Of a stretch of 64,000 nt of DNA, positions 1,279 through 16,073 are shown one piece after another. The translations under genes and the position numbers were made by a program. Origin of the DNA: Thalassovita mediterranea. GTDB taxonomy: Bacteria > Pseudomonadota > Alphaproteobacteria > Caulobacterales > Hyphomonadaceae. The notes beneath the pieces are model-generated. The model ran no database searches. It worked only from the letters and a program-made list of their open reading frames with translations, and was not told the DNA's origin. Positions within the stretch are counted from its first letter, which is position 1. Each line of letters starts with the position of its first letter. The stretch covers positions 1 through 64,000 of the forward strand of contig CP080408.1 in NCBI GenBank assembly GCA_019448215.1. The letters are read 5' to 3'.

Positions 1279-1374
1279 GGTATTTCCTCCCGAAACTGAT
1301 CCACGCCATACAGCCAATCTCGGCCCCGCGTGCAACCCATACCGTGGAGAAATGCGCGGCGAAGCCGCACCGCT

Positions 1375-1920
1375 CTAGTTGGAGATGACGATCCGTCCGC
1401 CTTCGACGTCAAACCGCGTGCGCTTCAGCTGGACCAGATCTGTCGCTGACCCGGTCGTGATGCGCACCCAGATAGCATCGACCTTGCCCTCTTCGGACTG
1501 CACCATGGCAACAGAACCGATATCCTCGCCGTACATGCTTTCGACCCGCATGCCTGCTGCCGGAATGCTGGGTTGCGCAGGCGCAGCGGCGCCGCCGCCC
1601 CGATCGCTGCCAGCACTCGCGAGGCGCAGCTCAGGACGAATCTTGCCGACTTCGGCGACCGCTGCCCTGCCAAAGCGCGGCTCACCGGGCTTGGCAACAG
1701 GCCCACCGAGCAGTTCGTCAGAGGCCATATATTGCTGTTCGAGATAATCGGTCTGGCGCGCCCGGTCACTGTCAGGCCAGCTGGCGACCTCATAGTCGCT
1801 GGCATAGCGGCCATTGGCGACATAGGTCTGCGCGTTCTGGGCCAGGACCGGAGCGGTGAGAGTAAAACCGGCAACAAGCGCCAGCGTGATTTTGGAGAAG
1901 CGGGAACGCGGGACAGACAT
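1375..1920 (-). CDS. Secreted hypothetical protein with PRC-barrel-like tail
   Basis: This 181-residue protein is not recognised with certainty. It has a clear N-terminal signal peptide (basic start, hydrophobic stretch about 10-25, cleavage after VLAQ). The middle is low in hydrophobicity, with Gly/Ala/Pro around 108-122. The C-terminal 55 residues (MRVESMYGEDIGSVAMV onward) resemble the beta-rich PRC-barrel pattern of predicted envelope proteins. It lies 36 nt before a second small exported protein gene on the same strand, so the two are probably co-transcribed. It is likely periplasmic; its role is unknown. Confidence 0.65.
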   Translation of the reverse strand: MSVPRSRFSKITLALVAGFTLTAPVLAQNAQTYVANGRYASDYEVASWPDSDRARQTDYLEQQYMASDELLGGPVAKPGEPRFGRAAVAEVGKIRPELRLASAGSDRGGGAAAPAQPSIPAAGMRVESMYGEDIGSVAMVQSEEGKVDAIWVRITTGSATDLVQLKRTRFDVEGGRIVISN

Positions 1921-3169: not shown

Positions 3170-3250
3170 CTGGCTTCCTCTCCATGGTCTTTGTTCTGCT
3201 TCGTCGCTAGAGACTTAAACTGGACCATCCGGAAACGCCAAGGCCAGACC

Positions 3251-4933
3251 ATGGGTAAGCCCCCTGCAGATGTGAACTTCACCTTTTCGGACGAAGAGCT
3301 TGAGGCGCTGAAGCCCTTCGGCGACGTTCGCGCCCATGCGGTGGGTGATCCGCTAATTGATGAAGGCGACGCGAATGTCGATTGCCTCATCACGCTGTCG
3401 GGCCACACCAGCATCCTTGTTGAAACGCCAGAAGGCGAAAAACGTCTTGGCTGGATGGAGCGCGGCCAGTTTGCTGGCGACATCTCCATCCTGACGGGTC
3501 AGGCCTCGCTCTCGCGCGTCGAGATGGGAGAGGCCGGCGAGGTGCTTCATATCTCGCACGACAATTTCCAGCGCCTGCTGGTTGAGAACTCGCATTTCTC
3601 CGACATTTTCGTGCGCACGCTGACAGCGCGGCGGATCTTCTCGCACAATGCCTCCCACGGCGCCGTCATCGTGATAGGCGACGCGCATGACCGCGACGTG
3701 TTCGTCGCCCGTGACACCCTCTCCAAGCACATGATCGCCCATCGCTGGCTCGACCCGGACAAGGACCCGCTTGCAAAGCGCATCATGGAAGCGAGAGAGA
3801 TTGCAGCCGCTGACCTGCCCGTCGTGATCCGTGGGCGTTCTCGTATCATGTCGCGCCCCGATGTCGGCGAATTGTCCGAAGCCTTCGGCCTCGATCTCGT
3901 ACCCGACAATAGCTGCACCGATGTTGTTGTGGTGGGCGCAGGCCCCGCCGGGCTTGCCGCATCGGTCTATGCCGCTTCGGAAGGCCTCACCGTGGTCACG
4001 CTGGACAGTGACGGCCCCGGTGGTCAGGCGGGCACATCGTCAAAGATCGAGAACTATCTCGGCTTCCCCATGGGTGTTTCAGGCCGTGAGCTTGCTTCGC
4101 GCGCTTCCATTCAGGCGCAGAAATTCGGCGCCCGTATCGCATCACCTGCCAGCGCGGTCGATCTTGCACGCGACGGCGACAATTATTGCATCTCGCTGAA
4201 GGACGGCCGCCGCCTCAAGGCCCGCGCCGTGGTCATTGCCACCGGCGCTCAGTATAGCCGCCTGCCGATCGAGAATCTGGAACGGTTCGAAGGGCGCGGC
4301 ATCTATTATGGCGCAACGCCCATGGAGGCGCAGCTGTGCGGCGGCCAGGATGTCTGTCTCGTCGGCGCGGGCAATTCAGCTGGTCAGGGCGCGGTCTTCC
4401 TCAGCCAGACGGCCCGCAACGTCCACGTCCTGTTCAGGCGCCCGAACATTCGCGACACCATGTCGGAATATCTCGTGCGCCGCCTCGAAGAGACGCCGAA
4501 CATCCACCTTCATCCAGAGACTGAAATCGACACGCTGCACGGCACTGGCAGCGAAGATCAGCTCAATGATCGCCTGACCCGGCTCAGCCTTCGCCACCGC
4601 ACCACCAGAGAGGTGAGCGAGCATGATATCGGTTTCGTCTTCCTCTTCATCGGCGCCCAGCCTTTTACCGACTGGCTGCCCCAGCATATGAGCTGCGATG
4701 AGAAGGGGTTCGTGAAAACCGGCCCGGACCTCTCCAATCTGGATCTCGTGCGCGCAGGCTGGACCCTCGACCGGATGCCGACCCGCTATGAAACCTCATG
4801 GCCACGCGTCTACGCCGTCGGCGATGTGCGGATCGGGTCAGTCAAGCGCGTCGCCTCCAGCGTGGGCGAAGGCTCCGTCGTTGTCAGCGACATTCACAAG
4901 GCGCTCGCAGAGATAACGCCTAGCGGTTCCTGA
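3251..4933 (+). CDS. Cyclic-nucleotide-binding domain / FAD thioredoxin-reductase-like fusion
   Basis: This 560-residue protein has three parts. Residues about 10-125 form a cNMP-binding beta-roll (GQFAGDISILTG). Residues about 135-213 look like a thioredoxin or glutaredoxin fold without active cysteines (DLPVVIRG). Residues about 222-560 form a pyridine-nucleotide flavoprotein, with FAD-binding GAGPAG at 229-234, GGQAGTSSKIENYLGFP and a second nucleotide site GAGNSAG. The CxxC redox pair of thioredoxin reductase is absent; that region reads YYGATPMEAQLC. It is therefore unlikely to reduce thioredoxin in the classical way. The start at 3251 was chosen because the much longer open frame upstream is antisense to the crotonase gene. 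Confidence 0.88.
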   Translation: MGKPPADVNFTFSDEELEALKPFGDVRAHAVGDPLIDEGDANVDCLITLSGHTSILVETPEGEKRLGWMERGQFAGDISILTGQASLSRVEMGEAGEVLHISHDNFQRLLVENSHFSDIFVRTLTARRIFSHNASHGAVIVIGDAHDRDVFVARDTLSKHMIAHRWLDPDKDPLAKRIMEAREIAAADLPVVIRGRSRIMSRPDVGELSEAFGLDLVPDNSCTDVVVVGAGPAGLAASVYAASEGLTVVTLDSDGPGGQAGTSSKIENYLGFPMGVSGRELASRASIQAQKFGARIASPASAVDLARDGDNYCISLKDGRRLKARAVVIATGAQYSRLPIENLERFEGRGIYYGATPMEAQLCGGQDVCLVGAGNSAGQGAVFLSQTARNVHVLFRRPNIRDTMSEYLVRRLEETPNIHLHPETEIDTLHGTGSEDQLNDRLTRLSLRHRTTREVSEHDIGFVFLFIGAQPFTDWLPQHMSCDEKGFVKTGPDLSNLDLVRAGWTLDRMPTRYETSWPRVYAVGDVRIGSVKRVASSVGEGSVVVSDIHKALAEITPSGS

Positions 4934-14506: not shown

Positions 14507-14532
14507 CGCCTGTGACCTTCCGGACACAGGCG
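14507..14532 (+). terminator. Hairpin after the helicase gene
   Basis: An 8 bp stem CGCCTGTG/CACAGGCG with a ten-base loop begins 18 nt past the helicase stop. It has no T-run, so termination here may need Rho, or the hairpin may only protect the 3' end. Confidence 0.45.
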
Positions 14533-14626
14533 CGCGTCCTCAGATAAAATTCTTAGGTGCCCGACATTGACGCCGGGAACGAGAGCTGACATCTGCCGCG
14601 CCTCATTCAACGCCATGGAGTGCCCG

Positions 14627-14713
14627 ATGACCTATCGGCCATTCAATTTCAAAGCATTGCCCGTCGCCTGGCCACAGGTCGGCGAAGGTATGCCTATGGA
14701 GGATGTTGAGTGA
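14627..14713 (+). CDS. Candidate short leader ORF before rtcB
   Basis: This is a 28-codon frame beginning MTYRPFNFKALP and ending MEDVE, with GGAG six bases before its ATG; a second in-frame ATG lies at 14615. The codon choice looks like that of the neighbours, but such short frames arise by chance. Its stop overlaps the 5' arm of a pairing that could prevent the downstream terminator from forming, so its translation could regulate rtcB. The 14490-14861 gap otherwise contains only hairpins and this frame. Confidence 0.35.
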   Translation: MTYRPFNFKALPVAWPQVGEGMPMEDVE

Positions 14714-14790
14714 GGGGCTGACCGTCAGCCCACCGGGAAACCGGATAACACGCACCCTCCACGCGCTTAAGCCTGGAGGGTTTTTCTTTC
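14712..14790 (+). promoter_or_regulatory. Structured rtcB leader with possible attenuator
   Basis: From 5' to 3' there is GAGGG (14712-14716), a hairpin GGGCTGAC/GTCAGCCC (14715-14731), a hairpin CCGG-GAAA-CCGG (14733-14744), an unpaired ATAACACGCA, and the terminator stem CCCTCCA/TGGAGGG. GAGGG can pair with CCCTC (14755-14759), the 5' arm of the terminator, which makes the two folds mutually exclusive. This is the layout of an attenuator or riboswitch. No known riboswitch class is recognised. Confidence 0.5.
14755..14790 (+). terminator. Intrinsic terminator inside the rtcB leader
   Basis: The stem CCCTCCA (14755-14761) pairs with TGGAGGG (14774-14780) around an inner GCTTAAGC and is followed by TTTTTCTTTCTCTC. 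It lies 72 nt before the rtcB start on the coding strand, so transcripts reaching rtcB must either pass it or start after it. Confidence 0.8.
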
Positions 14791-14833
14791 TCTCGATCCG
14801 ACAGGCTGCCGTGTGGAGGGCTCTCTAAGAAAA

Positions 14834-14861
14834 GGAGGGCTCGTCTGACGAGCACAGTACA
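14834..14861 (+). promoter_or_regulatory. rtcB ribosome site separated from the start by a hairpin
   Basis: GGAGGG (14834-14839) is the only good Shine-Dalgarno sequence, but it lies 22 nt from the ATG. A perfect hairpin GCTCGTC/GACGAGC (14839-14853) fills the gap and leaves only ACAGTACA before the ATG. Folding would restore normal spacing. CCCTCC at 14755-14760 could also pair with GGAGGG and hide it. Confidence 0.6.
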
Positions 14862-16073
14862 ATGAGTGATTTTGAAGTGATCGAAACCGCACGCGGCGGA
14901 GCGATCAAGGCCTGGGTCAAGGGCGTGCCAGTCGAAGACAAGGCGCGCGAGCAGCTGGAGAATGTGGCAGGGCTTCCCTTTGTCCATTTCCACCTCGCCG
15001 TCATGCCAGACGTGCATTTCGGGCGCGGCGCCACTGTGGGATCTGTGATCCCGACCAAGGGCGCCATCATCCCGGCTGCGGTCGGGGTGGATATCGGATG
15101 CGGCATGATGGCGATCCGCACCAGCCTGCGCGCAGAGCATCTGCCTGACAGCCTCAAGGGCATCCGCCGGGCGATCGAACGCGCTGTGCCAGTAGGGAAC
15201 GGGCGCGGTGGCAGCCACAAATACGTGCCCGCCACCGTGGAATCGCGCCTCAAGGCGTCCAACCTCATGGACCGGTTCGACCGGATCCGTGAGCGCCACG
15301 CCAAGATCGCGTCGAAGACCTACACCACCCAGCTTGGTACGCTGGGCGGGGGTAATCACTTTATCGAGCTCTGCCTCGATGAAGCAGATACCGTGTGGGT
15401 AATGCTGCATTCCGGCTCACGCGGGACGGGTAACCGCATCGGGACCTACTTCATTGAAGAGGCCCGCCGCGCGCTCGAAACCCGTGTGCTCGGCTATCAT
15501 GTGCCGGACCGCGACCTTGCCTTCTTTGTGGAAGGTGAGCCGCTGTTCGACGACTATGTCGAGGCTGTGGGCTGGGCGCAGGATTATGCGCGCCTGAACC
15601 GTGAAGTGATGATGGCCCGCGTGCTTATGGCGCTGCGGGAAACCTTCGAGAGCTTCACGACCGACAAGCATGCGGTGAACTGCCACCACAATTATGTGGA
15701 GAAGGAACGCCACTTCGGCGCCGATGTCTGGGTGACCCGCAAGGGCGCCGTGCGGGCAGGCGCTGGAGAGCTTGGCATCATCCCGGGATCGATGGGGGCA
15801 AAGTCCTTCATCGTGCGCGGGAAAGGGAATGTGGACAGCTTCTGCTCCTGCTCTCACGGGGCTGGGCGGGCGATGTCGCGTACCGAAGCCAAGCGGCGTT
15901 TCACCGTGGATGACCACGTGGCCGCCACCGAAGGCGTCGAGTGCCGCAAGGATGCTGGCGTCGTGGACGAAACGCCGATGGCCTATAAGGACATCGACGC
16001 CGTAATGGCTGCGCAGTCCTCTCTGGTGGAGGTGGAACACACCCTGCGCCAGGTGGTCTGTGTGAAGGGGTAA
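14862..16073 (+). CDS. rtcB: RtcB 3'-phosphate RNA ligase
   Basis: This 403-residue RNA ligase joins 2',3'-cyclic phosphate or 3'-phosphate ends to 5'-OH ends using GTP and Mn2+, for example repairing cleaved tRNA or rRNA. Key residues are present: Asp77 and Cys80 (VGVDIGCG), His166 (GGGNHF), His183 (LHSGSRG), His275/His276 (NCHHNYV) and the guanylylated His332 (SCSHGAG). The start at 14862 fits the family N-terminus (E. coli RtcB aligns from its first residues). There is no archease, rtcA or rtcR gene next to it. Its leader and trailer are unusually structured. Confidence 0.95.
   Translation: MSDFEVIETARGGAIKAWVKGVPVEDKAREQLENVAGLPFVHFHLAVMPDVHFGRGATVGSVIPTKGAIIPAAVGVDIGCGMMAIRTSLRAEHLPDSLKGIRRAIERAVPVGNGRGGSHKYVPATVESRLKASNLMDRFDRIRERHAKIASKTYTTQLGTLGGGNHFIELCLDEADTVWVMLHSGSRGTGNRIGTYFIEEARRALETRVLGYHVPDRDLAFFVEGEPLFDDYVEAVGWAQDYARLNREVMMARVLMALRETFESFTTDKHAVNCHHNYVEKERHFGADVWVTRKGAVRAGAGELGIIPGSMGAKSFIVRGKGNVDSFCSCSHGAGRAMSRTEAKRRFTVDDHVAATEGVECRKDAGVVDETPMAYKDIDAVMAAQSSLVEVEHTLRQVVCVKG

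Follow-up and report, generated by a model that had tools for sequence, protein, structure and literature searches.

The rtcB gene of Thalassovita mediterranea is probably preceded by a conserved ribosome-mediated transcription attenuator, which would switch rtcB on when translation falters (rough probability 0.8). The locus lies in the window, i.e. the whole stretch of DNA of 64,000 nt that was analysed (contig CP080408.1). Sequence comparison shows the parts of this leader, their conservation, the covariation of the helices P0, T5:T3, and T5:D, and, within the order, its split from RtcR; we infer promoter activity, ribosome stalling, read-through, and the signal.

In the proposed course of events, a promoter at 14567-14595 would yield an RNA beginning with a 28-codon open reading frame (ORF). 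Under full translation, ribosomes would mask the stop region as well as the antiterminator arm E1 (14697-14702) and let the terminator (14755-14780) form, and rtcB would be off. Early stalling, due to too little intact or charged tRNA or to a ribosome inhibitor, would leave E1 free to pair with the terminator 5' arm T5 during polymerase passage, leading to read-through and production of RtcB. The helix P0 would enclose E1 and be disrupted by ribosomes at either end. After read-through, the distal element D could capture T5, perhaps as a second layer acting at the message.

Layout of the leader and its occurrence upstream of rtcB

All features described here lie on the + strand. The gene rtcB (14862-16073) encodes an RNA ligase RtcB of 403 aa (PF01139, E 1.7e-127), which is 98% identical to the RtcB of a Henriciella metagenome assembly (L052), taken from the best 80 named contigs among the matches listed. 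The predicted leader promoter consists of a -35 element, TTGACG (14567-14572), of which TTGAC is conserved in relatives, and, 17 nt after it, a -10 element, CATCTG (14590-14595), with CATACG-, CATATG-, or CATCTG-like sequences at equal spacing in relatives; transcription would be expected to start at about 14602-14605. The sole match of an E. coli-type promoter scan, at 14521, was judged spurious. The 5' strand of P0 (CCTCATTCAACG, 14601-14612), the first bases of which may precede the transcript start, can form 12 bp with its 3' strand in the stop region (TGTTGAGTGAGG, 14704-14715). A putative ribosome site GGAG (14617-14620; anti-Shine-Dalgarno duplex -5.9 kcal/mol) is followed by the leader ORF (MTYRPFNFKALPVAWPQVGEGMPMEDVE, 14627-14713) with 28 codons and a TGA stop (14711-14713). 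An earlier note on this DNA had placed the end of a short ORF at 14713, which stands. An ATG at 14615, where the stretch described in that note begins, is in frame, but the start common to the leaders L004-L009 is ATG 14627, behind GGAG. E1 (TGGAGG, 14697-14702) is situated inside the end of the ORF, and the 3' strand of P0 overlaps the stop codon and part of a GAGGG (14712-14716).

Immediately 3' of the stop codon, a hairpin H1 (14715-14731), the pairing of which is maintained with altered bases in L008, is followed by a small hairpin H2 (CCGG GAAA CCGG, 14733-14744). The intrinsic terminator is built from T5 (CCCTCCA, 14755-14761), the shared partner of E1, T3, and D, from the 3' arm T3 (TGGAGGG, 14774-14780), and from a U-rich tract (TTTTTCTTTCTCTC, 14781-14794). 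D (CGTGTGGAGGG, 14810-14820), which includes the stretch GTGGAGGG (14813-14820), is an 11-nt distal partner of T5 plus its loop side (14755-14765). The rtcB ribosome site GGAGGG (14834-14839) and a hairpin GCTCGT CTG ACGAGC (14839-14853) between this site and the start codon complete the leader. The latter hairpin shows other sequence with similar pairing in relatives, with GCTCG/CGAGC in the window and GTCTG/CAGAC in some Hyphomonas leaders. All sequences quoted in the earlier note were found at the positions given there.

The RNA 14705-14861 has a predicted fold of -71.5 kcal/mol, compared with -53.7 ± 4.4 in 200 shuffles (z -4.04, none as good), and its best fold contains T5:D. The 3.22 Mb genome, a single contig, contains one match to the pattern CCCTCC-N6-18-GGAGGGTTTT, and a backward-read control contains 0. 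A simple terminator scan did not list the window terminator, since the scan was limited to loops of 3-8 nt and the actual loop measures 12 nt.

The search for RtcB matched 18 of 61 genomes of relatives, 56 of 105 in the family, 142 of 398 in the order (probably Caulobacterales), and 51 of 387 in the class; these sets overlap and include the window's own genome, and the 80 named contigs were added. This gave 218 upstream regions (200 unique), and a regular expression recognised the terminator in 127 of them. Within the order, 134 near-full-length loci from 133 of the 142 matching genomes were scored; fragments, frameshifted genes, and distant homologues (G054, G080, G132, G224, G240, G267, G269, G272, and G296) and further rtcB copies or pieces in G121, G234, G364, and G394 were left out. 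An intrinsic terminator between leader and gene, as expected of an attenuator, is predicted for nearly the entire class of the window's rtcB: a CCTCC/GGAGG terminator lies at most 340 nt upstream of 114 of the 116 rtcB genes whose products are at least 66% identical to the window's RtcB, and upstream of 0/18 with a distant RtcB (58-65% identity). The 114 comprise 112 loci found by script and two found by eye (L143 and L144, both without strict E1); the two misses are L010 and L166. This count scores the terminator alone, and 6/112 loci (L020, L040, L011, L160, L012, and L168) have no strict E1 in the search stretch. The locus L010 (G034) carries a similar-looking promoter type (TTGACG, then GATAAG and GCGCC) in front of an rtcB for which no leader terminator was found, possibly reflecting loss of the attenuator.

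The distance from terminator to rtcB ranges from 35 to 325 nt, with a median of 76. It amounts to 294-325 nt in 6/112 loci (L147, L150, L156, L161, L162, and L168), with an additional short ORF in between in those inspected. In the g23-like loci L147, L150, L162, and L168, where such an ORF was seen, the switch might control two genes. In the Maricaulis-type loci L051, L141, L142, L143, L144, and L145, a second long hairpin occurs between terminator and rtcB, e.g. GGGAGGGTGCGTG...CACGCACCCTCCC in L051; in most of these loci its arms resemble GGGAGG and CCTCCC. Beyond the order, the leader was detected in L062, L063, L068, L202, L203, L204, and L207, as well as in L101, which was placed in no order here; the regular expression found it in 4 of the 20 loci L202-L221, which belong to the class but not to the order and whose RtcB shares about 59% identity or more.

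The 127 terminators yielded 124 annotated leaders after removal of L066 and L168, for which no ORF was found, and of L200, for which the wrong ORF had been selected. Ten of the 112 script loci are outside this set, among them L147, L150, L162, and L168, with the terminator 296-325 nt from rtcB and near the edge of the sequence taken. L160 has the terminator and a longer upstream gene, with no recognisable leader ORF; in L200, L229, L230, L231, and L232, also outside the set, a leader is visible by eye.

A ribosome-mediated attenuator has its promoter upstream of the leader ORF, and a candidate is present in relatives. TTGAC occurs at -82 to -52 of the leader start in 33/34 core Hyphomonadaceae leaders (base-shuffled mean 0.8, max 4), the 34 being the author's selection and some of them near-identical; it is mostly found at -57 to -60, with a CATACG-like sequence 17 nt further on. 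At the same distance (52-82 nt), TTGAC precedes 53 of 121 leaders with enough upstream sequence (shuffled 2.3) and 25/65 divergent leaders (shuffled 1.5). In L175, just 29 nt separate T3 from the rtcB ATG, thus leaving no room for a promoter beyond the terminator.

Competing helices and ribosome positions

The earlier note had described leader ORF, terminator, and competing pairings of CCCTCC as an attenuator-like device, and this description is supported, the feature being broader than claimed there, with the terminator at 114/116 loci; stems and ORF are conserved in relatives. It had also assigned the antiterminator arm to the GAGGG over the stop codon, which is kept in the nearest leaders (L002 and L003) and not in L004-L009. 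The conserved arm is TGGAGG at 14697-14702, and the stop region serves as the 3' strand of P0 instead. GGAGG or GAGGG occurs in the last 33 nt of 110/124 leader ORFs, compared with 11.1 ± 2.9 (max 21) after codon shuffling, and in 58 of the 68 divergent leaders (codon-shuffled 5.9); strict E1 is missing in 14/124. GGAGG in the ORF was also considered as a ribosome site for restart and rejected, as in the leaders inspected no start codon follows it at a constant distance.

In the window, E1:T5 comprises 6 bp (14697-14702 with 14756-14761). Its core is invariant, leaving no varying pair for covariation, and own-versus-swapped comparisons of the whole helix gave no signal (z 0.5 with RNAduplex and 0.7 with contiguous helices). 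Of 75 leaders, 58 have GGAGG and CCTCC in exact form, and in 38/58 the nucleotide preceding GGAGG pairs with the one following CCTCC (26.5 ± 3.3 expected; 0/5000 shuffles); with one leader per lineage, this holds in 15/22 (9.1 expected; p 0.007). On the opposite flank of E1, pairing with the T5 flank is seen in just 31/58 leaders, and the window has an unpaired A opposite C there. In L167 and L169, E1 reads GGAAGG where T5 reads CCTTCC. The frozen core may be explained by one strand needing several partners.

The remaining helices vary in sequence. Over 67 leaders, own strands surpassed swapped ones for P0 (z 5.4 and 6.9), T5:T3 (z 6.5), and T5:D (z 7.6), with 0/3000 in each case. In alignment A2 (20 Hyphomonadaceae), 90% of the cells of P0 are paired, and its covariation amounts to 0.373 (shuffled 0.202, 0/500; slid registers at most 0.122), that of T5:D to 0.128 (shuffled 0.096, 3/500). 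The alignment tests of these two helices used five measures, two of which do not exceed shuffles: double-change pairs (P0 4 vs 2.9, 128/500; T5:D 2 vs 1.6, 300/500) and pair types (P0 14 vs 12.9, 145/500; T5:D 5 vs 4.6, 299/500). The P0 signal over 67 leaders appears when the segment compared spans stop to T5 and the scoring is by contiguous helices, and the best P0 helix measures just 5-6 bp in many lineages beyond Hyphomonadaceae and Caulobacteraceae. With RNAduplex, 49 non-Hyphomonadaceae leaders gave z -0.4 for the 5' end against the ORF end and z -1.7 for T5:D (86/2000); over 67 leaders, swapped strands were the more complementary ones for the ORF end with D (z 2.1) and for the 5' end with the ORF body (z 4.0). 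RNAalifold runs on six groups differed in their global folds and served solely as a lead to P0 and T5:D. Covariation, which the earlier note had proposed to test, is seen in the stop-region helix P0, T5:T3, and T5:D, but not in the core of E1:T5, which is flanked by a covarying base.

Two readings of P0 remain. It may keep E1 from T5 in the untranslated leader, which would then be off, or form a pseudoknot with E1:T5 and stabilise it; the latter is conceivable because E1 nearly abuts the 3' strand of P0 (14702 and 14704).

The repeat at 14810-14820, whose part 14813-14820 the earlier note had proposed as a partner of the CCCTCC arm, is a real and covarying one. Transcription reaches D only beyond the terminator, and the simplest attenuator model gives it no part. 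In modelled read-through RNA, D or a T3 partner is dominant in only 20/67 leaders, and in that of the window T5:T3 (0.94) beats T5:D (0.06). The g23 leaders L056, L057, L148, L154, L158, L163, and L193 have no D; they carry a CTCCAGGCCGC-like element just after the U-tract, which is complementary to T3 and appears to replace D.

The effect of ribosome position was modelled in RNA up to but without T3. Averaged over 67 leaders, the probability of E1:T5 is 0.29 for ribosome-free RNA, 0.62 when the 5' end and start are covered, 0.47 for a ribosome in mid-ORF, and 0.01 for one at the stop. With a 30-nt footprint moved from codon to codon, it is about 0.5 for stalls 17-30 codons ahead of the stop, drops to 0-0.03 for stalls 1-7 codons ahead, and is 0.08 for a stall on the stop codon itself. 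On this average, the model agrees with the polarity of the earlier note, with termination when a ribosome reaches the stop and read-through upon stalling. The earlier note had expected read-through from absent translation as well; the window's own leader gives 0.00 without a ribosome and 0.71 once its 5' end and start are covered. A single 30-nt footprint never raises the value above 0.28 and leaves it near 0 at most codons, because P0 competes, so that queued ribosomes or the pseudoknot would be needed. Once T3 is present, the terminator wins at equilibrium in every ribosome state (0.75-0.82), and antitermination must therefore be kinetic. Kinetic switching is a trait of known attenuators. 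An antiterminator masked by the ribosome at the stop, as attenuators require, is consistent with the conserved E1, its covarying flank, and the average model, to be read together with the invariant core and the equilibrium preference for the terminator.

Leader peptides and rival explanations

Leader ORFs were sought within 15-70 codons and a gap of 15-75 nt from stop to T5; over-long ORFs were trimmed by rule to an internal ATG, the start in L062 was set by hand, and the frame in L058 is doubtful. The 124 ORFs, from the order and beyond, have 21-52 codons, mostly 25-32, and end 26-49 nt before T5. The short leader ORF with ribosome site that an attenuator needs is correctly placed at 45/65 divergent loci, compared with 2.5 ± 1.5 in dinucleotide shuffles, and its translation is predicted; with GGAGG or GAGGG at its end as well, it is found at 36/65 (0.1 in dinucleotide shuffles). 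The peptides diverge strongly between lineages, 68/124 having less than 60% identity (later tests used 67 or 65 of these); the ORF and not the peptide sequence is therefore conserved.

The composition of these peptides is unusually diverse. Before E1, leaders contain 14.5 different amino acids, compared with 12.8 when residues are redealt among the 68 leaders (z 11.6). All 25 lineages, from a list drawn up by the author from genus numbers and peptides and applied to the E1 flank as well, exceed natural segments of proteins encoded in the window (mean z 1.48, p 4e-9) and base-shuffled ORFs (mean z 1.74, p 3e-8), p values that are optimistic because the lineages are partly related (between-lineage peptide scores -13.7, shuffled -18.9). 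Weighted by lineage, the share of leaders containing the residue is 87% for K, 83% for N, 92% for Q, 81% for Y, and 56% for C, whereas natural segments reach 53, 46, 51, 37, and 22%, respectively; I (41 vs 69%) and H (32 vs 43%) are scarcer. Against base-shuffled ORFs, C hardly stands out (56 vs 48%) and S is scarcer (77 vs 91%). This diversity throughout the 25 lineages suggests a sensor of the whole tRNA pool. The low histidine is a poor fit to a design against one known set of tRNA-cutting toxins, judged by the tRNA targets of these toxins.

A classical attenuator sensing one or two amino acids would find some agreement in the lineage-weighted enrichment of C, Q, Y, P, and N (1.5-2.5 fold). 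It is nevertheless extremely improbable, as no single-codon runs, which trp/his-type attenuators carry for the amino acid of their pathway, occur in the 68 divergent peptides, and as the leaders hold more different amino acids than protein segments, pooled leader residues, and base-shuffled ORFs alike. A ligand-binding riboswitch or a protein-bound leader, the former being the alternative named in the earlier note, would give H1 and H2 between stop and terminator a role and would accommodate P0 as a covarying long-range helix; we consider it very unlikely, as no Rfam family, T-box and known riboswitches included, gave a match either at the gathering threshold or with E relaxed up to 10, the segment from stop to terminator varies by lineage, and the leader ORF would be purposeless. 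The least probable account takes the ORF for an independent small gene with its own terminator that stands before rtcB by chance and has no regulatory function. Such a gene would look alike, and the six loci with a terminator 294-325 nt from rtcB and, in those inspected, a further short ORF in between would suit it; the terminator upstream of 114/116 rtcB genes of the class, a peptide sequence that varies by lineage while E1 is conserved, and the lack of room for a second promoter past the terminator in L175 argue against it.

The strongest rival is mainly a translation attenuator, in which the anti-Shine-Dalgarno-like T5 pairs with D beside the rtcB ribosome site, stalling in the leader shifts T5 to E1 and frees D, and the terminator either leaks or acts as a second layer. 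The strong covariation of T5:D (z 7.6) speaks for it; this pairing also outweighs T5:T3 in the modelled read-through RNA of 8/10 Hyphomonas and 4/4 g4 leaders tested, and in L013 the sole GGAGG between terminator and rtcB sits just before the start codon. However, D lies outside the apparent ribosome site in the window and in the Hyphomonadaceae leaders inspected, with long inserts in L005 and L007, several g23 leaders have the T3-complementary element in place of such a D, and the U-tract terminator is kept in 114/116 loci. This account thus appears rather unlikely, and transcription attenuation by the leader ribosome is preferred.

Relation to known attenuators and to RtcR control

The trp attenuator likewise combines a leader ORF, an antiterminator masked by the ribosome at the stop, and an intrinsic terminator. 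The same three traits are shared by the ilvB1 attenuator, as far as the accessible text describes it (PMC13236596). Compared with such biosynthetic attenuators, the rtcB leader has no codon run for a product amino acid, its first pairing segment is placed at the 5' end before the ORF, and T5 has a further partner beyond the terminator.

The nearest published parallel in the available portions of the literature is PA5471.1-armZ of Pseudomonas aeruginosa, where armZ is called RtcB-like and attenuation is proposed, awaiting confirmation (PMC12057347). Complete translation of its leader is said to lead to the terminator, and stalling by ribosome inhibitors to armZ transcription (PMC12057347, PMC13041342); armZ is also induced via the leader by loss of the tRNA CCA-adding enzyme, according to an excerpt of PMC13041342. 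The likeness is one of layout, a leader peptide and a terminator before an RtcB-family gene, which by its sequence the window appears to share. From what these excerpts contain, the product of armZ is an anti-repressor for an efflux pump, whereas rtcB itself would be controlled in the window, and codons 3 and 4 (Gln, Phe) matter in the PA5471.1 leader, whereas the rtcB leaders possess 21-52 varied codons, P0, and D. Upstream ORFs that sense translation stress are likewise described, in the parts of the sources at hand, for toiL-topAI (PMC12121999) and whiB7 (PMC13236596). The toiL ORF senses at least five inhibitor classes and acts on the ribosome site and Rho (PMC12121999), and whiB7 encodes a transcription factor (PMC13236596); the rtcB leader would act through a terminator, with an RNA-repair ligase as its output. 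The link of the rtcB leader to translation stress made in the earlier note also fits. No report of this rtcB leader was found in the open-access literature among the matches listed.

Control of rtcBA by RtcR and sigma-54 shares with the window the output gene and, as proposed here, induction by damage to the translation apparatus. VapC and translation-impairing agents act through RtcR to induce rtcBA in E. coli, and RtcR binds tRNA 5' fragments with a terminal cyclic phosphate, as stated in the available passages of PMC5175333 and PMC7790460, respectively. That system depends on an activator protein reading tRNA fragments, whereas profile searches found neither RtcR (PF06956) nor RtcA (PF01137) in the window's genome (G000). 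The window locus is not an RtcR-controlled rtcBA operon.

Within the order, RtcR is present in 15/398 genomes, every one with an rtcB of the 58-65% class, and RtcA in 16/398, namely the same 15 and, as a fragment, G380. One genome (G178) combines both classes, with a single rtcB from each, and its RtcR shares a contig with the distant rtcB; three distant-class loci, G277 (cut by a contig end), G403, and G407, have neither RtcR nor leader. Outside the order, RtcR occurs in 8/20 class genomes with a related rtcB, and G694 has both leader and RtcR, the latter on the contig of a second, 60% identical rtcB; the split is incomplete there, since 9/20 genomes show neither.

It is tentatively proposed, at somewhat less than even odds, that the rtcB leader is a general tRNA-integrity sensor, with a peptide kept by selection for the widest possible range of amino acids, which replaces RtcR and in which the anti-Shine-Dalgarno-like CCCUCC swaps GGAGG partners. 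If so, cleavage or shortage of almost any tRNA would stall the ribosome before E1 and turn on the tRNA-mending ligase, and the partners of CCCUCC would be the GGAGG sequences in the leader ORF, the terminator, and the rtcB leader. Such a leader, apparently tuned to many tRNAs and not to one amino acid, would explain rtcB control in many bacteria without RtcR, with the ligase mRNA itself reading the health of translation. Activator and attenuator would then be two parallel solutions, split almost cleanly across one order, the exceptions within it being the genome with both kinds of rtcB and the few rtcB loci with neither control.

Two rtcB loci without attenuator, L017 (from an RtcR genome) and L085, are flanked by YrlA Y-RNA-like genes. 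In L017, these genes and a tRNA-Pro gene occupy 2750-2882, 3282-3419, and 3191-3265 (-), and the YrlA Y-RNA-like gene of L085 lies at 1360-1480 (+); in L001 and L009, two attenuator-class loci of about 4.2 kb each, ARAGORN detected no tRNA genes. In the window's genus, rtcB is patchy and occurs in 8/28 other genomes, six of them with the attenuator class and two (G012 and G022) with the RtcR class.
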